This document shows positions 1-57,956 of a DNA stretch of 57,956 bases, piece after piece. Within the stretch, counting starts at the first letter, position 1, and the number at the start of each line of letters is the position of its first letter. The notes below the pieces were generated by a model. The model searched no databases. It worked only from the letters and a program-made list of their open reading frames with translations, and was not told where the DNA came from. Origin of the DNA: a virus; the IMG/VR virus record IMGVR_UViG_3300038428_000087, positions 1-57,956 of that record, one strand, 5' to 3'. A program made the position numbers and the translations under genes.

Positions 1-226
1 GCCGGTTGAAGATCAGGGAAATGAAGGTTCATGTACAGGCAACGCAGGCGACAACGCTTCTAAGATCCGAAGTTATACAGCAACAGGCAACTACTTCAAC
101 GGTGCCCGTCAGCAGATATACCAATGTGCCTTAGCGCACGATGGCAACCCACTACAAGATGTCGGTAGTTCATTAAGTACTATAGCGTGGGTTCTTGAGA
201 ACATCGGAGTTGCTGTTGAGTCTGAG
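1..226. repeat. Left copy of terminal direct repeat (genome closure)
   Basis: These 226 bases recur at 57731-57956 with one difference (T at 127, C at 57857), which is silent in a Cys codon. The repeat lies inside one protease reading frame that continues correctly from the right end into the left end. The simplest reading is a circular or circularly permuted genome of about 57,730 bp, with the single difference reflecting population variation. Confidence 0.95.
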
Positions 227-26279: not shown

Positions 26280-29200
26280 ATGACCGTCGCTTCATACGTT
26301 GGAACCTTTAACACACCTACCAGCACAGGCAATCAGACGATTTCCTTACCTGCGGGTTTCACTCCGAGTGCTGTTATTATCTGGGGCGTTCCATTATCGT
26401 CAGCAGGATGGAGCAGCGTTGGCGACCAGTTTTCCATTGGCTTCTGTGCCGGTGCAGGTGGGGCATCTCAAGGATATATCTCAATCGCAGGAAAGGGCGG
26501 TGCAGATCCAAGCGCAGAGTACCGCAGGTATAGCGCCAGTGCCGCCATTGGCATGGTTCAGTATGATGGCACGTTACTGTACGAAGCGACGTTATACGGG
26601 CTTAATTCAGGCGATTTTATATTAAACTGGACTACGGTATCCGCAACATCATACGAGTTTAACTTCCTAGCATTAACCGGCGTACCTGCAAAAGTAGTAC
26701 ACTGGACCTCTAACACCTCAACGGGCAACCAGAGCATTACAGGCGCGGGCTTCCAACCGGACTGTGTTATCCATATCGGTGATGCGGATGCTGGTCATAC
26801 TGCGAATACGACGACTAGCTCTGTTTACAGTATCGGTGCGATGGATGCTAGCGGTAACCAGTGGTCAAAGTATGGCTTTGCGATGAGTGGTGTTACTACT
26901 ACAAGCACAGGACGTATCCAGCTTGCCGACTCGTGCATTGTCGATACCGGCGCCACTACCTCTGTACACACTAAAGCATCCTTTGTATCAATGGATGCAG
27001 ACGGCTTTACGATACACTGGGGGACATACAGCAGCGGCGGAGCGAGAGATTATTTAAGTTTGTGTCTTAATACGGGCGGCGGGAGTTTAGTTGGCAACTG
27101 GACTAAATCAACGGCAGCCGCTCCAACAACAGACACGATTTCAGTACTCACCATAACACCTACGGCGGTACTGGCAACAACCGACAGCTATCCGGCCAAT
27201 ACCTCAGAGCAATCTGGACATCGGATTATGGTAGGCGCGTCGGATGGCACGAATAACTTAGTGGCGGGGGCCACCGATAAAAACGGCATTGTACTAAGCG
27301 GCAGTTCTAAAACGGTTACGCATAGGTACTTAAACGAATCATACTCCCTTGCAGGAACCAATAACGACCTAGGGAGCTATGATTCACTAGGTACTATAGG
27401 TTCATATGCCACAGGTTCGTTCCAGGCATCGTGGCCAACCACAAACTCAAACATTGCGACGCAAATCTGTTTTGTGGCGTTTGGAAACCCACGAATCGTT
27501 ATAAGCCGCTCCATTGACGTTGTTCCTGTTTTATATCCTTCCACGTACATATCGGGTTTTCCCTCAGTTATTCCTGCTTCTGTTTCAATCGCCCCGGAGG
27601 TAGACCTTTCTGTTACCACACAGCTAAGTTCAGTCATAACACGCACGATTACCCACGCAACGCACGTAGTTCCTACGGTATCAAAATCGATCATTTATAA
27701 CGTAATCTCAAGAAGCGTGACCATAACACCGCATGCACACGCTACCACTACACAATACCCGACCACGGGAATTGGCATGATGACTTTCGGTGGCGTTGAT
27801 ATTACGCAACCACCGTACTATGCTCACCTTGCCGATGCAACAAAATACTGGTGGCTTGATGGTTTTGATTCTACACAATTTACAACCAGCCCACTATCAA
27901 CAATTTCAACACGACCATATCTAAAGGACTGGGTTATCTCTACAGTAATACGGCCTAAAGTTCCCGATAATAAGAGAACCACGATGATAGCCGCAATGAT
28001 AGCGCTTGGGGAGGTTTTCGATCCAACCAAAGGCGAACAACAGCTTTCTTTTGGTGAATACCCTGCGAGTTATTTTATAGCAAAACGTCAGAAATCAAAT
28101 CCCTCAAATGAGAACGTTACCCCTACGTTATTAGATTTAGATATTGACTTCGCGTGTACCGGGCCTGCATACTCTGTAGTAGAATCAGTTATATGGGCCA
28201 CGGCCAGCGGAGTCGAGACCTCGTATGCAACGTTTACCTCAAAAGGCGATACGCTGGCCTCTCCGCGATGGCGGTTTTATTCGGTGGGTTACTTTAACGG
28301 CACGCTTACCATCACCAACGTAACCACGGATGAGGCAATTTCGTGGACAGGTACATTGAACGTGGCGGATACCCTAGAATTTATCATGGATGCTGAATAC
28401 GGAACGCCGTATACGGTGTTCCTCAACAACGAACAATCGCTTTCCAGCTTTAACGGCCCAGCGTGGCCTCATCTACAACCAGGACTTAATGAAATAGAAC
28501 TTTCAGCGTCCACACCAATACACGGCATACTTGAGGCTAGGTGGCGGGATAGGTTCTTAATCGGTCAACAGGTCGCCCCTACCCCCTCAGCGGCAAGCGC
28601 AGTTATCCCTACTATCTTAGTACTCAATGGAAAAGACAGCACATCTCCGGGTTCCTATGTGCTCTCCGGGACGTTAAAAGACGTATTCGGGAATCCGGTC
28701 GTAGGCGCTACGGTTACATTAGCCTCTTCTACAGATACCGCTCACTGGAATAATTTACAGACGACAACTACCAACGCAAGCGGATCGTATACCTTCGCCG
28801 CGACTGCGGTTTATACTGGCCTGCAGGAGTTCAGGACAATGTACATCGGGGGTTCTGAGTACTTAGGGAGCACCAGTGAGATGTTACACACATACCCACC
28901 CGATCAGAGGATACCCGTAAAACTCTCCTTAAGCATGGACGCATCGGCGTCTCCATATTACACGTTCAGTGGCAGCCTCGTGCTTGCGAGCAATACAAAA
29001 GTGCCCATCCCGAATGCACCTATTCATTTAGAAGTAAAAGTCCCGGCGAGTCTTTATACAAACGTTCCCTTCACATTCGACGGGCAAACAAACTTCACGC
29101 TGGCTAATACCGACATTCACGGGAAGTATTCTTATACGTACTACGTCGGGCCTACAACTAACGGGATTTCGGGAAGTTATACGTGGAACCAATACTTTAC

Positions 29201-30806
29201 GACGCAATTTGCAGCGAACCTCTATTATAGAGCGGCCTCGCCGCCATCCGCGATGACGGTATCAAACCAAAACACTCCCTGGCCAGCTCAAAATCCTGGG
29301 CCGGTTACGTATATGATCTCAGTAAACCCCGAAATGATAGACGCTGGCATGTTGCAGTACTTCGCAGGGTGCGGCTTTACCGTTTGTTTCTTGATATGCA
29401 ACAATCCCGACATGTACACAAACACGCTCTATCAAAAAGAATATGATATGATAACGTCAGTGGGCATGGTCCCGATGCTCGATGTTGAAAAGGTGGACCA
29501 ATACGGCACGGGAACTCCTAGCGCACCCGGGCCTAACTCTGGATCATGGTCAAACTGTCAGACTATGACACAGGTCGGATACTTTGGGACATGGTTCGCA
29601 AACCTCGCGGCGGTCGGGTGGCAGGGGGTCTCTTCTGAAATGGGCGCTGCTGGTGCTGTTGAGTTTTGTAGAAAGTATTTCCCCAATTATACAAACTACA
29701 CCCCGCCTGAGCCGTTTAGTTGGTATGCCCCCGGGCAGTACTACGAACAGGCAGTGGACACGTCAACGACACAAAACAGCATTGAGGCGTACTATAACTC
29801 AGACCCGCCTTACATCTACACCGCAGCACTCCAATCAGCGGAGCTAGGCATACCGATGGGCATACTAGGCTACGTCGGCGGTTCAACATGGAACTCGATT
29901 TATGTACAAAGCCTAAACGATGAAACACCAAGCTATCAGTCTCTTTTCGATTGGTCATACGCCAATGGAGTAGGTTTCAACACGTTCCAGGTGTGGATAG
30001 ACCCCGGTTCGTGGAATATTCTACTTTACGGTGAGCCCCACCAGTATTTCTTAAACGGTTATCGCGCTGCTGGATATGACACGATAGTAGCGCAATTACA
30101 AGAATCGTACCCGCCCGCTGGTACTGAAGTGCTCAATATCACACAATTAGCAACCGAGTTAACTTTATACATAAACGAAAACTCAGACGGCACATATACC
30201 ATATCAGGGCAGCTTTATGAGGTTCTTTCTGGCAATCCAATACCAAGCGCGCAGATATTCCTGCAACTCTCTACGAATACTACCACGAACGGACTCCTTA
30301 GTACACACTGGAATAATACAAACTTAGGCAACGCTAACCCGACAACCACCGATCAATCAGGTTCGTGGACTTCTACGCCTATCACACTGACAAGCGGGAC
30401 GTATTACTTCAGGGCGTATTACACAGGTACAATTACGTACTTAGGTTCGTATTCAGGGGACTATTACTTCGGATTAGGAGTAACGAAGGGCGGACCTCCG
30501 TCTAGCCTGACCATCACCGCAGATGACACAACCCCTGCTATTAATCAGGTGGTTAACTTCACGGCTACATTAACAGGTGGTGGAAACCCGATAGTAGGCG
30601 ACACAGTAACGATTTACCATTACATAGGCACAGGTGGAACCAAGTACATTGATGGCAGCGGGGTAACAGATGCAAACGGCGACTTCACCATACCTGCTTC
30701 CTTTACAACCGCAGGGCTACGCACCTACTATGCGACATTTAGTGGGGACGATAACTTTGCAGGAACAACCAGTGCGGTGCTTGATATTACAGTCACGGGT
30801 GCATAA
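26280..30806 (+). CDS. Giant distal tail protein: Dit-like, glycosidase-like and Ig-like domains
   Basis: 1508 residues. Residues 1-430 are beta-rich with tandem sandwich domains. About 495-765 look like a distal tail (Dit) module (GIGMMTFGGVDI, then YLKDWVISTVIRPKVPD, then LNEIELSAS). Two Ig/CnaB-like domains (about 778-1000) follow. A glycosidase-like TIM barrel spans about 1005-1280 (VTYMISVNPEMIDAG, MVPMLDVEKVDQYG, VGWQGVSSEMGAAG, FNTFQVWIDPGS). Two further Ig-like domains (1290-1508) end it. It would sit at the tail tip and digest or bind the host envelope. The fusion of Dit with an enzyme is uncommon. Confidence 0.75.
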   Translation: MTVASYVGTFNTPTSTGNQTISLPAGFTPSAVIIWGVPLSSAGWSSVGDQFSIGFCAGAGGASQGYISIAGKGGADPSAEYRRYSASAAIGMVQYDGTLLYEATLYGLNSGDFILNWTTVSATSYEFNFLALTGVPAKVVHWTSNTSTGNQSITGAGFQPDCVIHIGDADAGHTANTTTSSVYSIGAMDASGNQWSKYGFAMSGVTTTSTGRIQLADSCIVDTGATTSVHTKASFVSMDADGFTIHWGTYSSGGARDYLSLCLNTGGGSLVGNWTKSTAAAPTTDTISVLTITPTAVLATTDSYPANTSEQSGHRIMVGASDGTNNLVAGATDKNGIVLSGSSKTVTHRYLNESYSLAGTNNDLGSYDSLGTIGSYATGSFQASWPTTNSNIATQICFVAFGNPRIVISRSIDVVPVLYPSTYISGFPSVIPASVSIAPEVDLSVTTQLSSVITRTITHATHVVPTVSKSIIYNVISRSVTITPHAHATTTQYPTTGIGMMTFGGVDITQPPYYAHLADATKYWWLDGFDSTQFTTSPLSTISTRPYLKDWVISTVIRPKVPDNKRTTMIAAMIALGEVFDPTKGEQQLSFGEYPASYFIAKRQKSNPSNENVTPTLLDLDIDFACTGPAYSVVESVIWATASGVETSYATFTSKGDTLASPRWRFYSVGYFNGTLTITNVTTDEAISWTGTLNVADTLEFIMDAEYGTPYTVFLNNEQSLSSFNGPAWPHLQPGLNEIELSASTPIHGILEARWRDRFLIGQQVAPTPSAASAVIPTILVLNGKDSTSPGSYVLSGTLKDVFGNPVVGATVTLASSTDTAHWNNLQTTTTNASGSYTFAATAVYTGLQEFRTMYIGGSEYLGSTSEMLHTYPPDQRIPVKLSLSMDASASPYYTFSGSLVLASNTKVPIPNAPIHLEVKVPASLYTNVPFTFDGQTNFTLANTDIHGKYSYTYYVGPTTNGISGSYTWNQYFTTQFAANLYYRAASPPSAMTVSNQNTPWPAQNPGPVTYMISVNPEMIDAGMLQYFAGCGFTVCFLICNNPDMYTNTLYQKEYDMITSVGMVPMLDVEKVDQYGTGTPSAPGPNSGSWSNCQTMTQVGYFGTWFANLAAVGWQGVSSEMGAAGAVEFCRKYFPNYTNYTPPEPFSWYAPGQYYEQAVDTSTTQNSIEAYYNSDPPYIYTAALQSAELGIPMGILGYVGGSTWNSIYVQSLNDETPSYQSLFDWSYANGVGFNTFQVWIDPGSWNILLYGEPHQYFLNGYRAAGYDTIVAQLQESYPPAGTEVLNITQLATELTLYINENSDGTYTISGQLYEVLSGNPIPSAQIFLQLSTNTTTNGLLSTHWNNTNLGNANPTTTDQSGSWTSTPITLTSGTYYFRAYYTGTITYLGSYSGDYYFGLGVTKGGPPSSLTITADDTTPAINQVVNFTATLTGGGNPIVGDTVTIYHYIGTGGTKYIDGSGVTDANGDFTIPASFTTAGLRTYYATFSGDDNFAGTTSAVLDITVTGA

Positions 30807-30809
30807 GAC

Positions 30810-31868
30810 ATGACAACACCCTCACTGCTAACGTTTACCATATCCAACCCAAACCCCGCCATTAATCAGAGCTTCGTATTTGGGGGGGCGTTAACTGACA
30901 ACGAAGGCAATCCAGAGTGGGGAAGCCGGGTTATTACCATTTACAAAATAGTATCGGGCAGTAATGATGTAATAGGCACAGTTAGCACAGACTCAAATTC
31001 AAGCACGTACCAGTTTCTATGGAGTGAGTCAAGTTATGGAAACTTCACTTATTATGCCTACTTTGCAGGTGATGATGTATACGGAGCTGCGACGAGCGAA
31101 ACGATCTTAGTATCAATACCAGAGCCAGTTGTAGTACAAACAACCCCATTAATTTCAGATTATACATTCGAGCTCCATAGGTGGAACTGGACTAATAAAA
31201 GCACCGATAACCCATTTGGTACTGCTGAATACCTGGGAACGCTCGATAAACGCACAGTTCCGTACCTCTCGCGTGAGCTTGGACTTGCTGATTCTTTAAC
31301 GTTTAACCTACCCTTAGACGACCCGAAATACTTGTGGTTTTTAGACAACCCGCCTGGAAACACGATCGGACTAGAAGTATGGTATTATGGGCGCGATAAG
31401 AACCTAAAACAAATCTTTGTTCCCGTTTCAGATGAACCATATAGAGATTACGGAGCGACTTCTACAGGCTCAGGATCGGGTTCGTTAGGATCAGGGAGTG
31501 GTGATTGGGCGTTAATAACGTGCGACGGGCCGGAATCATATCTGACTCGTTATATCACTCAGAATTATAAAGTATCTCAAAGACTCGTAAGCGACATTCT
31601 ATTAGATATTACAGCCGAAATAAGGAAAGACGGCTTGATTTATTGGTGTAACGTTGACCCGTCGCTTAATATGCTGATTGATATTGACCTCTCATGGGAA
31701 AACCTACAGACCGCCGTTGGCAATGTGATAACACAAGTCGGCGGGTATATGCAAGTTCAAATGGAGTACGGCAACCCACTACACCGTGACCTTAACCTGA
31801 TGCCAATTCCAGGACAACTACCACAACCAACTGACACAGGAACAACCTCGGCGGTGTTGCCACAATGA
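30810..31868 (+). CDS. Tail-tip protein, N-terminal half (gp37-like) with Ig domain
   Basis: 352 residues. Residues 1-100 form an Ig-like domain related to the last domain of the upstream giant. The rest (DYTFELHRWNWTNKS, YLSRELGLADSLTFNLPLDD, EVWYYGRDKNLKQIFVP, DGPESYLTRYI) matches ReqiPepy6-gp37/minor structural tail proteins. The frame ends at ATGA overlapping the second half, which carries the expected continuation. The protein appears split into two coupled chains. Confidence 0.7.
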   Translation: MTTPSLLTFTISNPNPAINQSFVFGGALTDNEGNPEWGSRVITIYKIVSGSNDVIGTVSTDSNSSTYQFLWSESSYGNFTYYAYFAGDDVYGAATSETILVSIPEPVVVQTTPLISDYTFELHRWNWTNKSTDNPFGTAEYLGTLDKRTVPYLSRELGLADSLTFNLPLDDPKYLWFLDNPPGNTIGLEVWYYGRDKNLKQIFVPVSDEPYRDYGATSTGSGSGSLGSGSGDWALITCDGPESYLTRYITQNYKVSQRLVSDILLDITAEIRKDGLIYWCNVDPSLNMLIDIDLSWENLQTAVGNVITQVGGYMQVQMEYGNPLHRDLNLMPIPGQLPQPTDTGTTSAVLPQ

Positions 31869-33634
31869 GCGTACAGCCTCCGATAATGACTATCGGCAAG
31901 AACCTGAGCGGTATTGATATGAAGCGGGACAAATCCCAACTCGTGACTAAACTTTATCCAAGAGGCTCAGGTTCCACGCCTAGCGAACTTTGTTTGAATA
32001 ACCCTGCGTATTGGCCATCCGCACAAGAGCTTGAGTTATATGAAACAGACAACGGTTGGGCGTACTTCCATCTTCCTAAGATAAATGGTCAGTATGAATA
32101 TCAGGTCTATGATGGATGGACGGCTGTTGGTGCCGCGTTACCGAAGAAAGGAGCCGTAACGAGCAATGGTACAACAATTACTGATAACTTTGCGGTTGGC
32201 AAAGGTCTGGCAATGCCTTACACATTGCCGTCAACGGGCACCGACACTGCTGTTGAGGAAGTTATGGGAACTTCTTCAATGGCCATGGCTCAAATATTTT
32301 ATATGAGTAACTTGGTTACAGGAAACTCTACGCAATTTAGAATTTATGATGTAGCACTTCAGCTCCAGAGAGTGACACACACCGCTGTAGCGTGGCCTCT
32401 ACAGCCACGATTTATTGTTGGGTTATATTCGACTACTCCATCGGTAGCCGCCAACGGCGCAGTCGGGTATAGGGTGCCGTATCAAGGGCCTCTAGTTTGG
32501 TGCTATGGTAACCTATTTTCAATTTCTACTACACCCACTTGGTATCATTTTCCAATGCAGACCTCTGCATTTCCGTCTGGGTACTATGCTATTGTTATTA
32601 CTCCGTATGCCGGAACAGCATCTTGGGACAAAGTTAACCCCTCCCCCCAACATGTTAACGATGGCCTAGCGTTCGGTATTGGTCCCGCGAAAACATCTAA
32701 AACTGCTAGCTGTTATGCAGCCCAAAGTAGGGCAGGCATCACACAAGTATCGTGGTTACTTAACACTGCTGGGGGTCCTTATGCATCCCAATATGCTTTT
32801 CAAATTAGAACCATTGCAACCGACTTAACATCTAAATTCCAGCAGAGCGACGTGGTACACCCCGGAAGGCAGATAAAATGCCCACTCGCAGATTATGATT
32901 CAAGCGCACCTTACATTTTCCACTTCCAACACGCGCCGTATATGCAGGCGTGGGATGCCTATGATTCATATGGAAAATTTGAAGGGACGTTTAAAGACGA
33001 CGCATTAACGACGCAAAACGCTCTAATAAACGCGGGGGCACAGTATTTAACCGCAAACAGCCAACCGATGTACACGGTTAGCTTATCCGCTGCGGATCTC
33101 TACGATTTAGACCCAGTAAAGAATTGGGCGGAAGAGCTTACAATCGGCGGGGCGGTTACGGTGATTGACGATAGGATTCTTGATAACTACGGCAACCCTT
33201 TACAACTAACCGCGATAATCACTAAGATAGAGAAACAGGATTTAACACAGCCGCATACGTTAGATACGCTGACTTTAGATAATGTCCACCTCTCTGCACA
33301 TAAGATGATGGCGCAGTTGGGAAAGGCGTCGCAGCGAGGTCCTAAGTATTTACAAGGGCAAACCGTTGAAACGCCCTACCCCGGAGCAGTTGCAGCGACT
33401 TCTACTTCTCCAGGAACCATGAAGTTTTCGATCCGGGCGGGAACAACACTAACACAAGCGGTACGATTAACAGTTGATACACCGAGCGCGTTTACCCTAA
33501 AAGTCGATGGAACGGCGCTGGGGCAGACATTCTCAGGGTACTACAACGTTGATATTATGCAATACCTCACACAAAGCCACACCGGGCAACCTACACCCGG
33601 TGAGCACACCGTAGAAGTCTTGCCGACGTCATAA
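31865..33634 (+). CDS. Tail-tip protein, C-terminal half
   Basis: 589 residues. It opens with TIGKNLSGIDMKRDKSQLVTKLYPRGSG, the usual follow-on of the gp37-like module, then has an inserted beta domain (about residues 90-320) and the returning tail-hub pattern (PVKNWAEELTIGGAVTVIDD, then ITKIEKQDLTQPHTLDTLTL). Start overlaps the previous stop in the -1 frame, suggesting reinitiation. It likely helps form the tail hub. Confidence 0.7.
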   Translation: MSVQPPIMTIGKNLSGIDMKRDKSQLVTKLYPRGSGSTPSELCLNNPAYWPSAQELELYETDNGWAYFHLPKINGQYEYQVYDGWTAVGAALPKKGAVTSNGTTITDNFAVGKGLAMPYTLPSTGTDTAVEEVMGTSSMAMAQIFYMSNLVTGNSTQFRIYDVALQLQRVTHTAVAWPLQPRFIVGLYSTTPSVAANGAVGYRVPYQGPLVWCYGNLFSISTTPTWYHFPMQTSAFPSGYYAIVITPYAGTASWDKVNPSPQHVNDGLAFGIGPAKTSKTASCYAAQSRAGITQVSWLLNTAGGPYASQYAFQIRTIATDLTSKFQQSDVVHPGRQIKCPLADYDSSAPYIFHFQHAPYMQAWDAYDSYGKFEGTFKDDALTTQNALINAGAQYLTANSQPMYTVSLSAADLYDLDPVKNWAEELTIGGAVTVIDDRILDNYGNPLQLTAIITKIEKQDLTQPHTLDTLTLDNVHLSAHKMMAQLGKASQRGPKYLQGQTVETPYPGAVAATSTSPGTMKFSIRAGTTLTQAVRLTVDTPSAFTLKVDGTALGQTFSGYYNVDIMQYLTQSHTGQPTPGEHTVEVLPTS

Positions 33635-33647
33635 ATTGGGGGGCAGT

Positions 33648-34466
33648 ATGGCAAGCAAAGTATTTCAGCTATGTGCGGAATCATTCAGCAGCCCATCAGC
33701 TTTAAAGAGCGCAGGATTTATTGACCTCGTAGTCGAAGGGGGTTCCGGCTGTGTACAACCACCCGGCGGTTTTATATCTGCATGTCACTCGGCGGGTATG
33801 GGCGCACTTCTCCAAAACAGCGATTCAGGTTCAGGCGGCTGCAGCGATACTTCGTATCTTTCTGGATTGGCTAGTGCTGGCCTTGACGCAGTTGGCGGTG
33901 AGTCTGAAGGCGCTGCTGAAATAGACGCCATAATGGAATACCTTCCTTTTATGAACTATGGGGGAAGTGGGACAGGTGGTGGGACGTATGGTAATAATGA
34001 TGTATGGGCAAGTGGTGCGAAAGTTGGTAAATTCGGATGCTCAACATTCATGGAACCGTATGTTGGCAGCAGTCCGATGAGTGCCGATGAGATTGCATCA
34101 GAAGCCGCGATAAATAAAGATGCCGGGTGTTTTGAGGTTGGAATATTGGTAACTAATTATGATATCGGTCAAACGACAGACATGATGATCGGCTATGTTG
34201 ACGCAGCGGCGGATCAAGGCGTTACCATAGTAGGGTTCCAACAATGGTACGTGCTGGGCGATGGGTCTGGGTGGTCTGGGAATCCGGGGGGCAGTGTGAT
34301 AAGTGGGTTAATGAGTGAGTACGGTACGAATATGACTAATTTCTCCGACCGAAGGGGTGGAGTAACGCCAACACCTACACCCACTCCGACACCTACACCA
34401 GTAGGAACAGCACCCAACACAAACCTGTGCGTCAGAGTACGAGCGTACCAACCGGGGCAAGAATAG
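33648..34466 (+). CDS. Glycosidase-like virion enzyme with C-terminal QPGQE tag
   Basis: 272 residues from ATG 33648 behind GGGGGG; an earlier TTG at 33636 is less likely. The body is homologous to the 56060 protein (shared EAAINKDAGCFEVG and acidic strands such as AVGGESEG), suggesting a TIM-barrel hydrolase or hydrolase-like binder. A (Pro-Thr)n linker (about 34367-34400) leads to the 18-residue end APNTNLCVRVRAYQPGQE. The next two genes carry the same end tag. The TAG abuts the protease start. Confidence 0.65.
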   Translation: MASKVFQLCAESFSSPSALKSAGFIDLVVEGGSGCVQPPGGFISACHSAGMGALLQNSDSGSGGCSDTSYLSGLASAGLDAVGGESEGAAEIDAIMEYLPFMNYGGSGTGGGTYGNNDVWASGAKVGKFGCSTFMEPYVGSSPMSADEIASEAAINKDAGCFEVGILVTNYDIGQTTDMMIGYVDAAADQGVTIVGFQQWYVLGDGSGWSGNPGGSVISGLMSEYGTNMTNFSDRRGGVTPTPTPTPTPTPVGTAPNTNLCVRVRAYQPGQE

Positions 34467-36461
34467 ATGCCAATAGACCTTAGCAACTGGAAAGGCACGC
34501 GGGGCGCATTACCGAGCCCGTATGATCCGAGCGACCCCGTATTTCCCAATATCACCGCTGAACAGGCTGCGGCTCTGCCATCGTCAGTAGATCTCCGGCA
34601 CTATGACTCTCCAATCCGAAACCAAGATGGAGTGGGGTGCTGCGTGGCAGCAGCGTCGTGTGGCGTATTTGAATGGCTGGTACGTTATCTAGAACCGTCG
34701 GCGTGGTTTAAGACCAGCATGCTTGCTATTTATTATTGGGCTCGGGCGCTTGACGGCATGCAGAACACAGACGGCGGTACATATCCAAAATCAGCGATTG
34801 TAGCTATGACTAATACCGGGATGGCGCACGACTCGTTATGGCCGTTTGGGTCAGAAGTAAACTGCAACTCAGGCGTTGCGTATCCTAAACCTACGAATGT
34901 TAACACGGCACCCACTTCTGCTGTTACCACTGACGCAGCTAAGAATAAAGTAACGAAAAGCGTTAGCGTGGCGACGGGAACAACGATAGCAGGCAGCGGG
35001 GATAGTGTAATTACTGTGATGGGGCTAGACGATGCAAAAAACGCGATTGCTTCTGGCTACCCTGTCATGTTTATACTTTGTGCAGATGAATATGATGGCC
35101 TTATGAACACATCTATTAAATCAGGACAATCGTATGGGTTGATTCCAAACTTATCAGACTGGACAAAATCACCAGACCACGGGCAGATTGTAATGGGCTA
35201 CGATGATTCGATCACGAACCTTGATAGCTCAACAGGCGCGTTTATCGTAAAAAACTCGTGGTCTACTATGTGGGGCGATTGTGTATCCGGAGACACAAAA
35301 ATCCCGCTACTATCTGGAAAAGATGTACCCATCAGGTCTCTATTAAACGCTGCGCCGTTCTGGGTCTACGCGTATGATACTGACCGAAAGAAGATAGTCC
35401 CAGCGCAAGCGACCGCATGCAAACGTGCACATAAAAACGTTCCGACTGTAACCGTGTATCTCGACAACGATGAACATATCACATGCACGCCGGATCATCC
35501 TTTTTTGTTGCGAGACGGGACATATAAAAAAGCGGAAAAACTCAACGAGGGGGATTCTCTTATGCCGTTCTATCGTTCTTATGACAAAGACGGCTATACA
35601 AAAATCGCGTGTAACAGTACCTTCTCATGGGTACGCGCACACTGGATGATAGCCCGTGAGATGCGGATGTTTGAGGAACACAAAGGACGTGCAGTTATCC
35701 ACCATATTAATTTTGATAAAACAGATAACACACCAGAAAACCTTTTGGTAATGTCGCCAGAAGCACATTCAAGTTACCACTCACAACTCAAAGATAATAC
35801 ACCGATACTAGAAGCTTGGAACCGGAATTATGACAAATTGGTGAAAAATTCTATTAAAAACATCACCGGATATAACGAGCGCCTTAAAAACGGCGAAGTA
35901 GAGATTACAGAGCGGCAGCGGGAAGCGCGACGGAGAAATGCTATCACCCTAAACAAGAGTGGTACTCCAGAAGAAAGAAGTGAAAAAGCCGAACGTGCAG
36001 CGGTCACTAGGAAAAAGAGGGGGCCCGCTGCGTATGCTGGATGCGGGGTATACGAAAGAACTGAAGCACAGTCGAAACAAGCACGTGAAATGTGCTCGAA
36101 ACTTGCAGAGTATAGATGGTACAAAAATGCGGAGTCTGAACCACTATCATATAATGAGTGGGCCGCGACGTATAATCATAAAGTCTTGAAAGTAGAACGT
36201 CACGAGCGAATAGACACCTATGATATATGTGTGCCACGTTACCGCAACTTTGCTACTTCTGCGGGAGTATTCATACATAATTCCGGATACGGCTACCTTC
36301 CGTACGCGTACGCGAACAACAGTGCGATGTACGACGGGTGGATTATCACCGGAGAATCTGAGATCGTTGTACCGACACCTACACCTACGCCTGGTGGCGG
36401 GGGAGCTCCGAATGTAAACATCAACGTAGAGATACGAACCTATCAACCGGGGAATGAATAA
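34467..36461 (+). CDS. Papain-like cysteine protease interrupted by an intein, QPGNE-tagged
   Basis: 664 residues including a 334-residue intein (272-605), leaving a 330-residue mature protease. RNQDGVGCCVAAA holds the catalytic Cys, SPDHGQIVMGYDD the His and VKNSWSTMWGD the Asn of a C1 papain-type enzyme. The intein sits six residues after that Asn, and C-extein SGYGYLPYAY completes the strand. A PT linker and the end APNVNINVEIRTYQPGNE follow. It is paralogous to the protease across the genome junction. Activity would depend on protein splicing. The intein is described separately. Confidence 0.85.
   Translation: MPIDLSNWKGTRGALPSPYDPSDPVFPNITAEQAAALPSSVDLRHYDSPIRNQDGVGCCVAAASCGVFEWLVRYLEPSAWFKTSMLAIYYWARALDGMQNTDGGTYPKSAIVAMTNTGMAHDSLWPFGSEVNCNSGVAYPKPTNVNTAPTSAVTTDAAKNKVTKSVSVATGTTIAGSGDSVITVMGLDDAKNAIASGYPVMFILCADEYDGLMNTSIKSGQSYGLIPNLSDWTKSPDHGQIVMGYDDSITNLDSSTGAFIVKNSWSTMWGDCVSGDTKIPLLSGKDVPIRSLLNAAPFWVYAYDTDRKKIVPAQATACKRAHKNVPTVTVYLDNDEHITCTPDHPFLLRDGTYKKAEKLNEGDSLMPFYRSYDKDGYTKIACNSTFSWVRAHWMIAREMRMFEEHKGRAVIHHINFDKTDNTPENLLVMSPEAHSSYHSQLKDNTPILEAWNRNYDKLVKNSIKNITGYNERLKNGEVEITERQREARRRNAITLNKSGTPEERSEKAERAAVTRKKRGPAAYAGCGVYERTEAQSKQAREMCSKLAEYRWYKNAESEPLSYNEWAATYNHKVLKVERHERIDTYDICVPRYRNFATSAGVFIHNSGYGYLPYAYANNSAMYDGWIITGESEIVVPTPTPTPGGGGAPNVNINVEIRTYQPGNE
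35280..36281 (+). other. Intein with HNH homing endonuclease (334 aa)
   Basis: The insert begins with Cys1 (CVSGDTKI), has block B TPDHPFLLRDG, an HNH module (VIHHINFDKTDNTPENLLVM) and ends DTYDICVPRYRNFATSAGVFIHN with a penultimate His and terminal Asn, followed by C-extein Ser. All splicing residues are present, so it should be active. The length fits an intein with endonuclease. The frame is continuous with both exteins. Confidence 0.92.
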
Positions 36462-37384
36462 TGATCGGGGGACCAAGACCACCACCTGAGCAGGGCGGAG
36501 TGGGGGCTTCATCACAGTATCTAATCTACAAGTTTGCTCAAGACTCAACAACTATCACCAACTCGGGTAGTGGTGGAGACACATATAATGGAACGGCAGC
36601 ACGCGCTCAGTACCAAAAAGATTCTGTTGGGTATCCTATATGGGGACCCATGAACGCAAATACAGACGGGATACGGGTAGCGGGTGGAATTAATAACCCG
36701 TACCAGCACACATGGCAGGTTGGGCTTAATATAAACCAGTGGTGGCCCGGTCGCGGTCTAGGTTCGGATGGGTATCAGGATGGAAACGATGGGAAGTTAT
36801 TAGCTGCTGGGGGAAACCAATTCTATATGTATTTTCATGGTGTATCTGATGGCGTCCTCGGCGGCCCAAACTGTGCGCCCGCGACAGCAGGCACCTACAA
36901 TTTCACTGTCGAAGGCACTGGCATGAGCGGGGGTAACGATGCTGTTCAGTTGTGGCTTGGTGTAGAAGATGCAAAACCTGTTCAAATATCATGTTCAGGC
37001 CCAAACCCTGATGGCGCAAGGTTATATTGGGTGTTCGACTACAGCTTCCAGCTACATACCAACTATTATCTTCAGATTACAGTAAACAGCAGTGGAGTTG
37101 ACCTTTCTGCAGGATATTCTCTAAGTAACTGTATTGATACTGGTTCGCCGTGTTCGGACTCGTGTATAACTGGCTTTCCATCGGGCTGCTATTTTTATGT
37201 GTGGCGAGAGGATAACACAGTCTTAGATTTATCCAGTGGTGGTAACTGGGCTGATGATGTCGTTTTATGGAAAGGCGGGGGCCCTGGACCTAGCCCTACA
37301 CCAGGACCGACACCCACACCAGGCACAGCACCGAACGTAAACATGAACGTGAGTGTGAGAGAATGGCAACCAGGGAACGAATAA
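36461..37384 (+). CDS. Beta-sandwich virion protein with QPGNE tag
   Basis: 307 residues; ATG overlaps the previous TAA. The body is Gly/Asn/Tyr-rich, with a strand-rich domain (DSVGYPIWGPM, QFYMYFHGVSDG, YNFTVEGTGMSG, LYWVFDYSFQLHTNYYLQITV) like carbohydrate-binding or lectin folds. A PTP-rich linker leads to APNVNMNVSVREWQPGNE, the same C-terminal tag as the two upstream enzymes. It may bind sugars for the neighbouring enzymes. No exact family recognised. Confidence 0.6.
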   Translation: MIGGPRPPPEQGGVGASSQYLIYKFAQDSTTITNSGSGGDTYNGTAARAQYQKDSVGYPIWGPMNANTDGIRVAGGINNPYQHTWQVGLNINQWWPGRGLGSDGYQDGNDGKLLAAGGNQFYMYFHGVSDGVLGGPNCAPATAGTYNFTVEGTGMSGGNDAVQLWLGVEDAKPVQISCSGPNPDGARLYWVFDYSFQLHTNYYLQITVNSSGVDLSAGYSLSNCIDTGSPCSDSCITGFPSGCYFYVWREDNTVLDLSSGGNWADDVVLWKGGGPGPSPTPGPTPTPGTAPNVNMNVSVREWQPGNE

Positions 37385-37407: not shown

Positions 37408-37929
37408 ATGCCACAAGAAGAGATAACAAAACGCCTTGATGTTCATAGAGAAGAACTTACAGATCTGGAAAAATGTGTTAAAGAGTGTCAGATAAGCAAC
37501 GCTCAACACGATGAACGGATTAAAGCTGGCGAGGAGTACCGGAAAAAGCAAAACGGCATACTCGAATCACTGGAGCATGGAATACACCATATAGGGAAAC
37601 AAGTTGATGTGTTAAGTCTTAGTATGGCTAATAGGTTTGGCGAGATGGAACGGGGGGCAATAACACGTGAAACAGAACGCGATAGGTCAATAGCAGCGTC
37701 GCTCATCCTTGCAGATGCAAAGGTAGCAAAAGCCCTCCTCGAAGCAGACGAAAAGATTACGGAGGCTAAGGAGAAAGCCGATGATGATATTAATAAACTG
37801 CGCGTCGAGGTTCTAAATCGAAGAATCTTTCTTAACTGGAAGATCATCGGAGCCGTGTCATCCATCACATTTCTTTTCATACTCGTTTTTATCTCATATT
37901 CATTTCACGTTTTTGGGGGGCTTCCTTAA
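37408..37929 (+). CDS. Coiled-coil protein with C-terminal membrane anchor
   Basis: 173 residues. A long coiled coil (about 1-135) is followed by one strong transmembrane helix (IIGAVSSITFLFILVFISYSF). The arrangement resembles XhlA-type lysis accessory proteins or spanin-like anchors. It overlaps a further short frame, and a related small protein follows. A lysis role is inferred from position and layout. Confidence 0.6.
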   Translation: MPQEEITKRLDVHREELTDLEKCVKECQISNAQHDERIKAGEEYRKKQNGILESLEHGIHHIGKQVDVLSLSMANRFGEMERGAITRETERDRSIAASLILADAKVAKALLEADEKITEAKEKADDDINKLRVEVLNRRIFLNWKIIGAVSSITFLFILVFISYSFHVFGGLP

Positions 37930-37930
37930 T

Positions 37931-38185
37931 ATGGATGAGGACATAAACAAAATAAGAGACATAGCTCAAGAGGCCCATGACTGGTGTCTGATTGATAAAC
38001 AAAGGTTAGATACCATCGAAGACCACTTAGATAAACAGGACGCGAACGATGTAGTTATTCGAGATGAGCTGCTTAAAAAAATTGACGAGAACAAATCAAA
38101 GTTCAATGACGCAATGTGGGCTATCGCTATGCTTATTATCGGTGGACTTGTAGCAGGATTCGTTTATGCACTCATTTTGAGATAA
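37931..38185 (+). CDS. XhlA-like coiled-coil/membrane protein
   Basis: 84 residues from ATG 37931; the in-frame earlier start at 37913 lies inside the previous gene. An N-terminal coiled coil with KQRLDTIEDHLDKQ leads to a transmembrane helix (AMWAIAMLIIGGLVAGFVYALIL). It pairs with the preceding gene, which has the same topology. This fits the hemolysin XhlA-like lysis family. Confidence 0.65.
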   Translation: MDEDINKIRDIAQEAHDWCLIDKQRLDTIEDHLDKQDANDVVIRDELLKKIDENKSKFNDAMWAIAMLIIGGLVAGFVYALILR

Positions 38186-38204: not shown

Positions 38205-38534
38205 ATGACAACCTATACAGCAGCAACAAGCAACCTGGTTAACGTAGATGTCGTTGTTCCGTCAGTGGTTACGCAGCTCACCGCAGTTGCAAGCGTATCA
38301 ACGGCAAACGTAAATGAAGTATTTGAGGTTTCAGGCGTGCTCACGGCAGCCGACGGTTCTATACCAGTGAACCAGACTATTCAGTTGCAGATGCAGCAAA
38401 CGGATGGAACCTTTGCAGACGTAAGTGGTGCAACTGGCGCAACCGACGAGACCGGGGCATACACGATTCCGGTATCTGAGATAACCGCAGCCGTGTATGG
38501 ATTCCAAACTACCTACGCCGGAGGTTCAGCATGA
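38205..38534 (+). CDS. Single Ig-like domain protein
   Basis: 109 residues behind AAAGGAGGTGAAAC. The sequence QLTAVASVSTANVNEVFEVSGVLTAADGSIP, followed by TDETGAYTIPVSE and YGFQTTYAGG, is an Ig-like/CnaB-type fold related to those in the tail enzymes, here standing alone. Its TGA overlaps the next ATG. It may decorate the virion or act as an adaptor. Confidence 0.65.
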   Translation: MTTYTAATSNLVNVDVVVPSVVTQLTAVASVSTANVNEVFEVSGVLTAADGSIPVNQTIQLQMQQTDGTFADVSGATGATDETGAYTIPVSEITAAVYGFQTTYAGGSA

Positions 38535-40513: not shown

Positions 40514-40678
40514 GGTTTGAAAAATGACAGAAACAGGATACGAACACATTGGTGGTGAATCTGAAGAGCAACCAGAACCGGACGTGTTGTTAGATTATAT
40601 CACATATGGGTTCAGTGGTATGCCAGTTCCGAGAAAATGCGCCAAGAAAATATGGAAAAAATGAGGTTTGAAAAATGA
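40514..40678 (+). repeat. 165-bp perfect direct repeat, copy 1
   Basis: Identical to 41111-41275. It covers GGTTTGAAAAATGA, a complete 46-codon gene and the next GGTTTGAAAAATGA, so each end of the repeat unit is the initiation element itself. Confidence 0.95.
40524..40664 (+). CDS. 46-residue hypothetical protein, duplicated gene copy 1
   Basis: The product has an acidic start (MTETGYEHIGGESEEQPEPD) and a basic end (RKCAKKIWKK). An identical copy is encoded at 41121. The perfect identity shows a very recent duplication. Function unknown. Confidence 0.7.
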   Translation: MTETGYEHIGGESEEQPEPDVLLDYITYGFSGMPVPRKCAKKIWKK

Positions 40679-41110: not shown

Positions 41111-41275
41111 GGTTTGAAAAATGACAGAAACAGGATACGAACACATTGGTGGTGAATCTGAAGAGCAACCAGAACCGGACGTGTTGTTAGATTATATCAC
41201 ATATGGGTTCAGTGGTATGCCAGTTCCGAGAAAATGCGCCAAGAAAATATGGAAAAAATGAGGTTTGAAAAATGA
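41111..41275 (+). repeat. 165-bp perfect direct repeat, copy 2
   Basis: Identical to 40514-40678. The flanks differ at once beyond both ends, so exchange probably took place inside the short GGTTTGAAAAATGA repeats. Confidence 0.95.
41121..41261 (+). CDS. 46-residue hypothetical protein, duplicated gene copy 2
   Basis: Same protein as at 40524, no change. The gene is now followed by a zinc-ribbon gene instead of the 40675 gene, showing that the cassette moved into a different context. Confidence 0.7.
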   Translation: MTETGYEHIGGESEEQPEPDVLLDYITYGFSGMPVPRKCAKKIWKK

Positions 41276-44475: not shown

Positions 44476-45618
44476 ATGGACGATATCATGCGTGAACTAG
44501 TAGAAGAGGCCCCGGTCATATTCAAAGACGAACGCACCCTCACCCCACTATACGCTCCAAAGAAGATAGTCGAACGGGATGAGATGATTCGGGAGATAGG
44601 GAAGAACATACGAAAACTGGCACGCGCTCAATTACCACATCACATGTTAATCTTAGGTGGAAACGGCACGGGGAAGACCGTTACGGTCCAATACGTCATG
44701 CACCAGATCAGCGAGGTCGCGGCGTTTTATTACATCCACTTGCATGGCAGCGATGAGGTTCCATTGTATGAGACATTGCGGTATATAGCCGATGATTGTC
44801 TTTGTATGATCCAGGCTAAAGACATCTCTTGGGCTGCCGTTTATGATCAGTTCGCCGACTCTCTACGTCAGCAGAATAAACCACTTATCCTCGTGCTTGA
44901 CGAGTTTGATTATTTTATTACCGGTCCGATGTTCAAGTTGCTCAAGAAGTTGTCACGTAATCCAAACGTCTGTATGATAGGGATAAGCAATGATTATAAT
45001 GTTCTTGACATGGTAAACGACCCAAGCTTTCTTTCTGCCTTCAATCCGCAGCGTGTGGAGTTTCCAGAATACACAGGTGAAGAGCTTGAAACGATCCTAC
45101 AAGAGAGGGCTAAAGAGGCGTTACTCCCTAACACACTGGATGAAATTGTTATTAAGCTGATTGCCGCATTTACCTTAAATAAACGAAGCGGAGATGCTCG
45201 TTATGCGTTGGATCTTTTAAAATATTCTGCAGACAATAGTACCGATAACAACCGAGAAAAGATATTCGAAGAGGATGTGCGCACATCAGTTGAGCGTTTA
45301 GAGCTCGTTTATAATGTGAGCATCGTCACGCGTTTGCCTCCACAACTCAAGCGCATCGCTGCCCAGGTAGTGAAAAAAGAAGTAATCAAACGCAGTGAGG
45401 TGCTCGATGCGTATAACAAAGCAGCTAAGCGACATGGCTTTGCGACGCTTTCTAGAACTAAGTTTTCATTTTATTTAAGTTCACTTGAGCGGAAGGGTAT
45501 TATCGAGCGAACAAACAAAGGTGGGGGCAGAGGTAAAGGTATCGAGCGGCTTGTGCGGTTGTCTCCTAACCTTGACATTGATGAGACTAAGGAGGCATTA
45601 GTCGATTTTGCGGGATGA
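44476..45618 (+). CDS. cdc6: Orc1/Cdc6 replication initiator
   Basis: 380 residues, normal for the family. Walker A GGNGTGKT (61-68), Walker B LVLDEFD (139-145), sensor 1 MIGISND (167-173), and a C-terminal winged helix (about 300-375, with SRTKFSFYLSSLERKGIIE). It would bind the neighbouring inverted repeats and start replication. The gene lies directly beside the origin, as in most archaea and their large plasmids. No helicase or polymerase is present, so host enzymes must be recruited. Confidence 0.93.
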   Translation: MDDIMRELVEEAPVIFKDERTLTPLYAPKKIVERDEMIREIGKNIRKLARAQLPHHMLILGGNGTGKTVTVQYVMHQISEVAAFYYIHLHGSDEVPLYETLRYIADDCLCMIQAKDISWAAVYDQFADSLRQQNKPLILVLDEFDYFITGPMFKLLKKLSRNPNVCMIGISNDYNVLDMVNDPSFLSAFNPQRVEFPEYTGEELETILQERAKEALLPNTLDEIVIKLIAAFTLNKRSGDARYALDLLKYSADNSTDNNREKIFEEDVRTSVERLELVYNVSIVTRLPPQLKRIAAQVVKKEVIKRSEVLDAYNKAAKRHGFATLSRTKFSFYLSSLERKGIIERTNKGGGRGKGIERLVRLSPNLDIDETKEALVDFAG

Positions 45619-45970: not shown

Positions 45971-47029
45971 ATGGCAACCACAAAAGAAGAAAAAGAAACT
46001 GAAAGAAAATTACCACAAGAAACGAAACGGCTTTTTATCAGCACTAAGCTTATTCGTCCAAATCGGTTCAATCCACGGACCGAGATAGACAAAGAAAGCG
46101 ATTCAGAGTTACTACAAAGCATCGCGGTCCGCGGCGTAGAAACTGAAATACGCGTACGCCCTCTCGAAGAACCCGACGAAGAAGGGCATTACTATGAAGT
46201 CTTTGACGGGGACCGCAGGTTACAGGCTGCAATCAAGGCAAAGCATGCTACAGTACCGATTATCATACTATCCAAATCAGACGACGAAGTCCTGGAATAC
46301 GGCCTCGTATCAACAATCCGCCGAGGGCTGCGCGGCGTCGAGATGGGGAGGACTCTTTTAGAACTCCAGAAAAGGTTTAGTTCAAAGTACCCAAACCAGA
46401 GAGCAATGGCACGCAAGCTTGGCATCTCGACCGCCAGGATTAATCAATACATTAAACTCGTCACCGACCTGGACCCAGAAGTACAGGATTTAGTCGCACC
46501 GGCAGATCAGCGAGGGAATATACCAGAAGGCGCGATAACCGACCGAATAGCGTATGAGATATCCCACATTCCGGACAAGGAACGGCAACGCGAAGTAGCT
46601 AAAGAAATCGCAACACACCCAAAGCTTACCAGCGATAGGGCCAGGCTCCTTGTCTACGAGGCACGCGACGAACCTGAAACACCAGTACCGGAATTAACGC
46701 AACGAAGATTAGAACATATCACCCCGTACCGGCCTACGCTTGTAATGTCAGCAGAAGATTATGAAGCACTAAAGTCCGGGAAGAAAAGGGTCTTAATAGA
46801 GCGGAAACGCAGGCCGGGGATGCAAAAAGACGCGGTAGTCGAACCACTCATTAAAGCCGAATCGCTCGAGCTCGCAGACGTGTTCGACCGTCCGTTAGGC
46901 AGGTTCAAAGACCTCGACGCAAAGAGCGCAGGGTATCCTGACCTTGAAAGCTTTAAAGAAGCGTGGTTAGAACGGTTTGGTGGAGAGTGGAACCCGCAAG
47001 AAGTAGTCTACGTCCTGTTGTTTAAGTGA
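45971..47029 (+). CDS. parB: ParB-like DNA-binding protein
   Basis: 352 residues. LIRPNRFNPRTEIDKES, then FDGDRRLQAAIKAKHATVPIII is the ParB/Srx nucleotide-binding box (with GDRR), followed by an HTH (NQRAMARKLGISTARINQYIKL). The C-terminal 150 residues are specific. No ParA ATPase is encoded here, so it may be a ParB-type regulator, a CTP switch that recruits host factors, or a partition protein using host ParA. Behind it stands a strong terminator. Confidence 0.85.
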   Translation: MATTKEEKETERKLPQETKRLFISTKLIRPNRFNPRTEIDKESDSELLQSIAVRGVETEIRVRPLEEPDEEGHYYEVFDGDRRLQAAIKAKHATVPIIILSKSDDEVLEYGLVSTIRRGLRGVEMGRTLLELQKRFSSKYPNQRAMARKLGISTARINQYIKLVTDLDPEVQDLVAPADQRGNIPEGAITDRIAYEISHIPDKERQREVAKEIATHPKLTSDRARLLVYEARDEPETPVPELTQRRLEHITPYRPTLVMSAEDYEALKSGKKRVLIERKRRPGMQKDAVVEPLIKAESLELADVFDRPLGRFKDLDAKSAGYPDLESFKEAWLERFGGEWNPQEVVYVLLFK

Positions 47030-56059: not shown

Positions 56060-57199
56060 ATGGCTACACAAAAGATGGTCTACGGGGTTGCCGCTTCAAG
56101 CGACACAAACCCAACACCGTATAAACTAAAAAGGGTGTCAACGACGCCAGTACCGCAACCTACGCTGGCAAAGTCAATCGCGCCACTAAAAGCGCAAGGT
56201 ATAGAAGATTTCTTACAAGTCGTTGCTGACGGAGCGTATCCAGATTCATCGTTTATCTCAGACTGTAAAACAAATGGGGTAACGTGTGGAATAAACAACA
56301 GCAATGACGGAACTAGCTCAAACTGGTCTTTAGCATATTACCAAGCCCTTGCTGCTCAAGGCGTGCAGTGGGCAATCGGAGAATCAGAAAGTGGTGGCGA
56401 GATGTGCGCTATGATGCAGGCAGCGCCAGGGAAACTTGTAGCGGGTACGTATGGTGGCGAGGGGACCGGGGGGCCCACAGGTAATAATGACATCTGGAGT
56501 GGGAATAACCTCACGCCAACGTGTACTATTGCTAAAGGCACAATAAACGCTTGGCTCGAAACATACACAAGCAGTGCAATGCTCAGCGCAAGTGAAATAG
56601 GAACGGAGGCAGCTATCAATAAGGACGCTGGCTGCTTTGAGGTTGGTCTTTTACCCGGAACATGGTGCGAGGCCGACTATGGTGCTACAGCAGAGACGTA
56701 TCTTGAGATGGTCGATGCGATGAAATCACAAGGAGTTACCTGCGCTGGGGTTCAGATGTGGTACTATCAAGGTGGTTTCGCATATCCAGATATTTTCACA
56801 GGTTTGATGGCAGAATATCCAGCTAACATGACGCCCATACTACAAAGAGCGAGTGGGACACCGACACCGACACCCACACCACCGACGCCCGATCCAGCAG
56901 TAGCAACACAATGCTTCCTAACCGTAGACAATGCAAACCCGAAGGTAAACGCTCCGGTAACGTTTACTGCTACAGTAATGAGCAACGGCAAAGAGATTCC
57001 AGTCCCCGTTACAGTTTACCATTACCTCAACGGAATCAAATACATCGACGCTCCAAGTAAAGCGGTTCTAAACTCTTTCTCAACGCTGACCTTCCAGACA
57101 ACGTTTACGACAGCAGATCCGAGACCATACTATATGTCATTCGCCGGAAATGCTCAGTATAAAGCTTCAAACGCACCATTGGGTGTGAACGTGCAGTGA
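56060..57199 (+). CDS. Glycosidase-like virion enzyme with Ig-like C-terminus
   Basis: 379 residues from ATG 56060 with GGAGGCTAAA upstream. The body parallels the 33648 protein (QWAIGESESGGEM like AVGGESEGAAE; EAAINKDAGCFEVG identical) and suggests a TIM barrel with acidic strand ends. A PTPTPTPPTP linker joins an Ig-like domain (FLTVDNANPKVNAPVTFTA ... YYMSFAGNAQYKAS) nearly the same as in the junction-spanning protease. It would digest or bind the host surface. The exact family is not recognised. Confidence 0.65.
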   Translation: MATQKMVYGVAASSDTNPTPYKLKRVSTTPVPQPTLAKSIAPLKAQGIEDFLQVVADGAYPDSSFISDCKTNGVTCGINNSNDGTSSNWSLAYYQALAAQGVQWAIGESESGGEMCAMMQAAPGKLVAGTYGGEGTGGPTGNNDIWSGNNLTPTCTIAKGTINAWLETYTSSAMLSASEIGTEAAINKDAGCFEVGLLPGTWCEADYGATAETYLEMVDAMKSQGVTCAGVQMWYYQGGFAYPDIFTGLMAEYPANMTPILQRASGTPTPTPTPPTPDPAVATQCFLTVDNANPKVNAPVTFTATVMSNGKEIPVPVTVYHYLNGIKYIDAPSKAVLNSFSTLTFQTTFTTADPRPYYMSFAGNAQYKASNAPLGVNVQ

Positions 57200-57207
57200 G
57201 GTAGAAA

Positions 57208-57588
57208 ATGGATGAAGATGAGCAGAATACTGAGGGGTATATTCTACGTCGCGATGTCGAAGAATTAGATTCAATTATCGAAAATCTCTCTACAGTAACC
57301 GACAGTAAAGCACGAACGCTGTTTAGATTACGAAGGGTTCACGAAAGCCTGAAGATGATGGAAAATAGATTATCCAGACCAGGTAGACGGGAAGAACTAA
57401 GCAAAGAACATTGGGAACCTAAAACTGAAACGGTTTCAACTGCAACACCAAATTGTTGGACTCGACCATCTGAAACTGGTTCGACTACAGCACCAAATAC
57501 TCTTACATTTGGCCAGGTGCTAAGAAAAAAGTTTGTTGATAAAGATGACGATGAGGCGTTTATAGGTTTTATAGGAGATAAAAAATGA
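57208..57588 (+). CDS. 126-residue coiled-coil protein, hypothetical
   Basis: ATG 57208 with GAGGTAGAAA upstream. N-terminal half is a coiled coil (LRRDVEELDSIIENLS, RRVHESLKMMENRLSR), then a Thr/Ser/Pro stretch and an acidic end. ATGA coupling to the protease gene. It may link the two enzymes to the virion or act as a chaperone. Confidence 0.6.
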   Translation: MDEDEQNTEGYILRRDVEELDSIIENLSTVTDSKARTLFRLRRVHESLKMMENRLSRPGRREELSKEHWEPKTETVSTATPNCWTRPSETGSTTAPNTLTFGQVLRKKFVDKDDDEAFIGFIGDKK

Positions 57589-57956
57589 CTCAAGTATATT
57601 ACGACCACTCGAACGGCAAAAGATATTTTATGGGGTGCAATCGCGACCCACCACACGCCGATGCAAAGTTACTTTTAACTCGTAAACAACAGGCGGAACT
57701 ACCTAGTTCTTATACTATTATAGATGGCACGCCGGTTGAAGATCAGGGAAATGAAGGTTCATGTACAGGCAACGCAGGCGACAACGCTTCTAAGATCCGA
57801 AGTTATACAGCAACAGGCAACTACTTCAACGGTGCCCGTCAGCAGATATACCAATGCGCCTTAGCGCACGATGGCAACCCACTACAAGATGTCGGTAGTT
57901 CATTAAGTACTATAGCGTGGGTTCTTGAGAACATCGGAGTTGCTGTTGAGTCTGAG
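57585..57956 (+). CDS. Papain-like cysteine protease, 5' part across junction
   Basis: First 124 codons of the protease that continues at position 2. It starts with ATG 57585 overlapping the previous TGA. The opening (TQVYYDHSNGKRYFMGCN) is short and has no signal peptide. PVEDQGNEGSC with the catalytic Cys is near residue 60. See the entry at 2-1036 for the remaining domains. Confidence 0.85.
   Translation, partial: MTQVYYDHSNGKRYFMGCNRDPPHADAKLLLTRKQQAELPSSYTIIDGTPVEDQGNEGSCTGNAGDNASKIRSYTATGNYFNGARQQIYQCALAHDGNPLQDVGSSLSTIAWVLENIGVAVESE
57731..57956. repeat. Right copy of terminal direct repeat
   Basis: Same as 1-226 apart from one base (57857). Its presence shows that the window is longer than the genome by 226 bases. 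Confidence 0.95.

Follow-up and report, generated by a model that had tools for sequence, protein, structure and literature searches.

Matched C-terminal ends on two sets of putative envelope-attacking enzymes in a tailed virus

Genome of the virus and location of the two sets

The window, meaning the whole stretch of DNA analysed here, is a genome record of 57,956 bases in which positions 1-226 recur at 57731-57956 and differ only at position 127. Such a repeat suits a genome that is circular or terminally redundant, and with its one difference it may stem from strain variation at a circular junction or from true terminal redundancy. The window carries terminase, portal, head, tape measure, Dit-like and Tal-like genes. 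The host of this tailed virus is likely to be an archaeon, mainly because its Orc1/Cdc6-type replication initiator has plasmid matches that, among those listed, are all archaeal (the best listed is from Methanothermobacter, 34%). Scans of a collection of 84,980 genomes found no relative in cellular genomes. The initiator gene adjoins that of a ParB-like protein (45971-47029), a plasmid-like replication and partition pair in a tailed virus. Elsewhere, a perfect 165-nt direct repeat (40514-40678 and 41111-41275, 597 nt apart) lies among small ORFs.

Two sets of genes encode a cysteine protease together with a glycosidase-like protein. Set A consists of g2 and of PJ, a protease gene that spans the record ends and contains the 226-nt repeat; set B, next to the tail-tip gene Tal, consists of g1, p2 and lec. 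The features of interest are the following.

2-1036, plus strand: remainder of PJ, with the C1 body to ~727, a PTPTP linker and an Ig-like domain at ~767-1030
26280-30806, plus strand: large tail protein with a Dit-like part and the same Ig-like end as set A at ~30510-30791 (Ig profile E 8.9e-14)
30810-31868, plus strand: tail protein with an N-terminal Big_3_5-like domain at ~30837-31112 (E 4.1e-5, below cut-off)
31865-33634, plus strand: Tal, tail-tip protein (Prophage_tail E 7.4e-15), with a C-terminal domain at ~33485-33631 that appears to lack its last strand
33648-34466, plus strand: g1, glycosidase-like protein of set B, with a predicted TIM-barrel body, a linker and a C-terminal tag at 34410-34463, APNTNLCVRVRAYQPGQE
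34467-36461, plus strand: p2, protease of set B, with a C1 body interrupted by an intein, a linker and a tag at 36405-36458
35280-36281, plus strand: intein in p2, 334 aa (aa 272-605), with Cys1, a terminal His-Asn (IHN), +1 Ser and an HNH endonuclease region
36461-37384, plus strand: lec, lectin-like third member of set B (conserved family A4), with a tag at 37328-37381
37408-37929 and 37913-38185, plus strand: two coiled-coil-like proteins with a C-terminal membrane segment (hydrophobicity scan)
44476-45618, plus strand: Orc1/Cdc6-type replication initiator with lid and winged-helix parts (Cdc6_lid 4e-18, Cdc6_C 7e-9)
56060-57199, plus strand: g2, glycosidase-like protein of set A (family A7), with a TIM-barrel body at ~56063-56860 (predicted from the model of its paralogue g1), a PTPTP linker and an Ig-like C-terminal domain at ~56918-57193
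57585-57956, plus strand: N-terminal part of PJ, running off the record end, with the active-site Cys in VEDQGNEGSC

When the record ends are wrapped, PJ reads as one intact ORF of 393 aa, and the independent contigs L005 and L009 also carry it unbroken, so that a gene broken at the record end was rejected. Tal, g1, p2 and lec are closely packed, with adjacent or overlapping stop and start codons at the g1-p2 and p2-lec boundaries. The name lectin-like is a working label for lec, which has no family match in Pfam, PHROGs or PDB sequences. The pair of coiled-coil-like proteins beyond lec occupies a holin/XhlA-like position beside set B, and the second of them matches phrog_1193, annotated as "hemolysin" (E 1e-4). 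Among the membrane-segment genes that follow set B there is also a 109-aa protein (38205-38534) with weak similarity to Big_1 and phage_tail_N.

Catalytic bodies of the proteases and barrel proteins

The initial annotation took the catalytic bodies to be paralogous across the two sets, and the comparisons bear this out for both families. The bodies of g1 and g2 are 36% identical (E 3e-32), and the C1 body of p2, represented by its copy in the near-identical virus G007, matches that of PJ (E 1e-11, 27% identity); protease bodies of set A and set B are ~27-31% identical. The block EAAINKDAGCFEVG is common to g1 and g2 and identical as protein, but a recent DNA copy was rejected because only 32 of its 42 nt are identical.

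The window proteases are assigned by profile and motif to peptidase family C1 (papain). Against Pfam Peptidase_C1 (gathering score 20.7 bits), p2 scores 28.6 bits (E 1.8e-6) and PJ 29.2 bits (E 1.3e-6), while a relative in G010 reaches 57.2 bits. The catalytic residues, whose absence would have spoken against the initial annotation, are in place: Q54, C60, H212 and N238, corresponding to the oxyanion Gln and the catalytic Cys, His and Asn, do not vary among six aligned proteases, p2 and PJ among them. The NSW motif is found in all 14 proteases examined, and PJ also has the His motif. The nearest solved chain to the C1 profile is 3ois (PDB; E 1.7e-37), matched over nearly the whole body.

In p2 the C1 body is interrupted directly after the active-site Asn motif, NSWSTMWGD, by an intein with the features of class 1 (Intein_splicing 59.4 bits, cut-off 35.8), whose HNH region has matches in PHROGs and, just under the cut-off, in Pfam. 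The protease is probably inactive until the intein splices. The same intein is present in G007 (94.9% DNA identity to that of the window) and absent from the orthologous proteases of G008 and G009.

The body shared by g1 and g2 has no Pfam or PHROGs family and no match to a glycoside hydrolase (GH) family, and its best match among PDB sequences extends over 33 residues (E 0.035). An AlphaFold2 model of g1, built from an alignment of 22 sequences, is a confident eight-stranded (beta/alpha)8 barrel (pLDDT 88.4, pTM 0.90), in which two Glu residues that are invariant in the 22 sequences are located at the end of strand 4 (E86) and just after strand 6 (E137). Many GH families, though not all, have the (beta/alpha)8 fold, and several GH clans use acidic positions on strands 4 and 6. 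Fold comparison of the barrel retrieves TIM barrels in general (TM ~0.4-0.55), with an arabinoxylanase and an endo-N-acetylglucosaminidase among many non-glycosidases. The term glycosidase-like is plausible because of the barrel model, the invariant acidic residues and the TIM-barrel fold matches. Of the earlier proposal of a modular tool with one enzyme for sugars and one for protein, the modular build, the exchangeable ends and the C1 residues stand, and the sugar-cutting part is left without a GH family match. A structure model of the L052 protein from its single sequence was uninformative (pLDDT 30). A third copy of the barrel, which the tail protein 26280-30806 seemed by eye to contain (aa 1010-1290), was not supported by profile comparison (probability 1%, no profile match to the g1/g2 family).

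C-terminal ends of set A and the relationship of the sets

As had been claimed, g2 and PJ end in the same Ig-like domain (67% identity over 101 aa), which is joined to unrelated catalytic bodies by linkers with PTPTP-coding repeats. The best Pfam family for both ends is Big_3_5, at sub-threshold scores (24.0 bits for g2 and 19.2 bits for PJ, cut-off 35.5), whereas the related domain of the tail protein 26280-30806 scores 35.7 bits. The set-A domain recurs in two tail proteins of the window, 26280-30806 and 30810-31868, just as the propeller-like ends found in relatives also occur on the G008 Tal and on G010 tail proteins. The first of the two window tail proteins (1508 aa) resembles a Dit-like protein onto which large N- and C-terminal extensions have been fused: its aa 495-764 are matched by a G008 protein of 269 aa that has no such extensions, and its match to SPP1_Dit is weak.

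Among relatives that carry both set-A enzymes, no discordant pair of ends was found. Both enzymes have Ig-like ends in the window, L006, L007 and L008; both have propeller-like ends in G006 and G010, as also in L089, where the barrel copy is truncated; and both have a third type of domain in L084 and L102. In G008 the barrel enzyme has a propeller-like end and the protease a 13-aa remnant alone, and in L095, L096 and L101 an end is present on the barrel enzyme and absent from the protease. The propeller-like continuation that a frameshift in the ends of the G008 set-A protease and the G006 lectin-like protein would have left was sought just downstream in other frames and not found; for this reason both look like genes that have lost their end modules and kept linker remnants. 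The two set-A genes are ~12 kb apart in G008 and more than 20 kb apart in G006 and G010, where the ends nevertheless match in type.

Phylogenetic trees of the bodies were set against the ends, a comparison proposed at the outset, and indicate that the two have separate histories, since differently ended bodies are neighbours while each end matches that of its partner. In the protease tree, L084, with the third type of end, is sister to L008, with the Ig-like type (100/100); in the barrel tree, the Ig-bearing body of the window is placed beside the propeller-bearing bodies of G008 and G006 (99/98). Within L084 the end domains of the barrel enzyme and the protease are 87% identical. Very different C1 bodies are attached to a near-identical C-terminal domain in L084 (782-1921) and L102 (2178-3347), which clearly shows that one body has taken the place of another at the linker. 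The set-A ends have thus been replaced in both enzymes together, a pattern that is suggestive rather than statistically strong because the independent lineages are few (about five or six).

The initial annotation further supposed either that a whole pair was duplicated and its anchors exchanged or that anchors spread within each site by conversion. Exchange of anchors agrees with the trees and with the matched types. As for duplication, the trees of both families separate set-A bodies from set-B bodies across viruses (92/97 for the protease split, and only 75/56 for the TIM-barrel split). The separation therefore probably predates these viruses, in keeping with an ancient duplication of both enzymes; a single duplication of the whole pair, separate duplications and independent acquisitions are all compatible with the data.

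The set B tag, the tail tip and a possible mount

The 18-aa tag that was noticed at the ends of g1 and p2 is confirmed (11 of 18 residues identical; pattern xNxNxxVxVRxYQPG[NQ]E), and it also ends lec, whose tag is identical to those of g1 and p2 at 11 and 13 of the 18 positions, so that set B is a trio and not the pair first described. Among the 1552 ORFs of the window and its relatives, no genes other than those of set B end in this pattern. On inspection, hydrophobic residues alternate along the tag in the manner of a beta-strand. The mounts of the two sets therefore differ in kind, contrary to what had been assumed, set A having a folded domain and set B about one beta-strand.

A possible counterpart of the tag is found in Tal. 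The barrel enzyme and lectin-like protein of G010 have a 66-aa domain at their C-termini. A profile built from this domain matches the C-termini of two Tal proteins, that of the window at profile positions 10-42 (E 2e-11) and that of G008 at positions 11-43 (E 4e-8), and both proteins stop there. The set-B tags of the window and G008 correspond to profile positions ~42-66, the scores of the tag by itself being non-significant (E 0.08-4). The Tal proteins of G010 and G009 end earlier, after a strand ending in IDGVVV or VDGNAVW, and there the set-B proteins bring more of the domain: positions 1-66 in the barrel and lectin-like proteins of G010 and position 8 onward in the barrel enzyme of G009. 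At the level of sequence, Tal and a partner add up to a single complete, non-overlapping domain in all four lineages, and the split falls at one of two points. The protease and lectin-like protein of G009 do not fit a simple one-to-one complement, because they bring the last strand alone, though the G009 Tal lacks the larger half. Judged by position, pattern and orthology, the set-B tag seems to correspond to the final beta-strand of Tal's C-terminal domain. No unsplit relatives of Tal were found beyond the four lineages, no Tal match was found in named phages, and nothing significant was retrieved for the split domain from the PDB.

Within set B, lec differs most between the window and G007. 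DNA identity between the two is 99.9% in Tal, 99.6% in g1 and 100% in the N-extein of p2, and falls to 79% in the end of p2 and 71% in lec (27737-28693 in G007), which keeps its tag. The divergence of lec amid near-identical neighbours points to cassette exchange, and lec would be the fast-exchanged member of the set, as expected of a surface-binding part. In L064, L065 and L070-L074, the lectin-like body forms the N-terminal part of a larger protein (670-740 aa) that also has several propeller-like repeats, and no recognisable relative of the window Tal adjoins the gene.

We lean towards the explanation that the virus has two matched envelope-attacking sets, each with a C-terminal mount of its own, of which set B docks by supplying a strand that Tal lacks and set A has had its mount replaced jointly. 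Each set would combine a C1 protease with a TIM-barrel, probably sugar-cleaving, enzyme, to which the tail-proximal set B adds the lectin-like protein. In set B, Tal would be built one strand short and g1, p2 and lec would each supply the strand, docking on the tail tip by split-domain complementation; protease, barrel enzyme and lectin would in this way be placed at the contact point and act at first contact, perhaps breaching an S-layer or other glycoprotein envelope through lectin-like binding and the two enzymes. The chances seem even that Tal offers a single socket for interchangeable tools in this manner, with each accessory enzyme or lectin bringing the missing strand or strands, with the split point having moved between lineages by matching changes in Tal and its partners, and with lectin bodies swapped while the plug was kept. 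In set A the mount would be a folded adhesion-type domain (Ig-like, propeller-like or of the third type), and because the same types of end are used on some tail proteins, we propose that they direct both enzymes to a common surface or partner, whether on the virion or once lysis has occurred. A mount that serves a whole set would be replaced jointly, while catalytic bodies would be swapped separately. Accordingly, the earlier suggestion that the enzymes are mounted at two places on the virion is favoured for set B by the complementarity with Tal, while what points to it for set A is the end domain shared with tail proteins.

The main rival for set B is a role in lysis, because genes for holin/XhlA-type proteins with a membrane segment come directly after it. 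Both sets would then be cytoplasmic lysins, released at the end of infection, whose shared ends merely bind the host envelope, and such a role agrees with the location of set B between Tal and the two coiled-coil-like proteins, together with a small membrane protein, with the absence of a hydrophobic signal-peptide-like segment from all set-A and set-B enzymes in a hydrophobicity scan, and with the failure to recognise another endolysin among the proteins searched. Tail-tip accessory proteins, however, are often encoded between Tal and holin genes as well, an 18-aa tag of a single strand is unlikely to fold by itself as a binding domain, and the tag corresponds to a piece absent from Tal. A lysis role for both sets thus seems somewhat unlikely, and set A by itself may possibly act as free lysis enzymes.

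Two further alternatives concern the origin of the sets and their ends. That the sets came from different sources and not by duplication, with ends added afterwards, we regard as unlikely: the modest identity of the protease bodies and the weakly supported barrel split allow it, but both families occur in both sets in the window, the protease does so in G008 and the barrel in G010, and the block shared by g1 and g2 would have to be accounted for. Moreover, no outside source of the barrel is known, because no relative of it was found in genome or phage collections at the sensitivity used. It is more doubtful still that end domains simply spread by chance between genes, with the PTPTP-coding linkers as recombination hot spots. 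The repeats themselves, the close similarity of the two L084 ends and the near-identical protease ends of L084 and L102 on unlike bodies are what neutral exchange would produce; types that match across more than 20 kb, the lack of discordant pairs and the complementarity with Tal are left unexplained by it.

Several surface enzymes are often found in one tailed virus, yet the way in which a single tail tip accommodates unrelated enzymes has been worked out in few cases. If docking by strand completion is correct, a one-strand C-terminal plug that completes a tail-tip protein would be a very small and transferable mount, and the sets would offer a way into the questions of how viruses of uncultured archaea breach envelopes with a protease, a presumed sugar cutter and a lectin, and of why two matched tool sets are kept. 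Openly accessible papers on complementation by strands in tail fibres, on archaeal viruses with papain-like proteases and on inteins together with papain and phage yielded no description of such an arrangement, and the tag as a detached strand of Tal appears to be new here.

SpyTag/SpyCatcher was engineered as a split that is closed by an isopeptide bond, and donor-strand complementation in pili passes strands along a polymer. In both, as proposed for Tal, a beta-sandwich that is missing a strand is completed by the strand of another molecule; unlike them, Tal would be a natural split on a viral tail tip, with a split point that varies by lineage. The branched tailspike complex of the Ackermannviridae (phage CBA120 TSP1-4), the closest of the known arrangements compared, in which several spikes are attached through N-terminal anchor and XD domains (PMC8825819, PMC11414711), likewise brings several surface-acting proteins to one tail part by dedicated anchor modules. 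There the scaffold is formed from the N-terminal anchor and XD domains of one tailspike, whereas the element in the window is C-terminal, about one strand long, and appears to complete a truncated Tal; the N-terminal parts of the window proteins are enzyme or lectin-like bodies instead of anchor or XD domains. Viruses of methanogens encode pseudomurein endoisopeptidases (Pei) (PMC12596118), which resemble the window proteases in being virus-encoded peptidases with an archaeal envelope as their target, presumed in the case of the window. Unlike Pei, the window peptidases match the papain family, C1, with Gln-Cys-His-Asn, and matched no other peptidase family. Finally, whereas 3ois is listed as a stand-alone cysteine protease chain, the viral C1 proteins add PTPTP linkers, swappable ends and, in one case, an intein.
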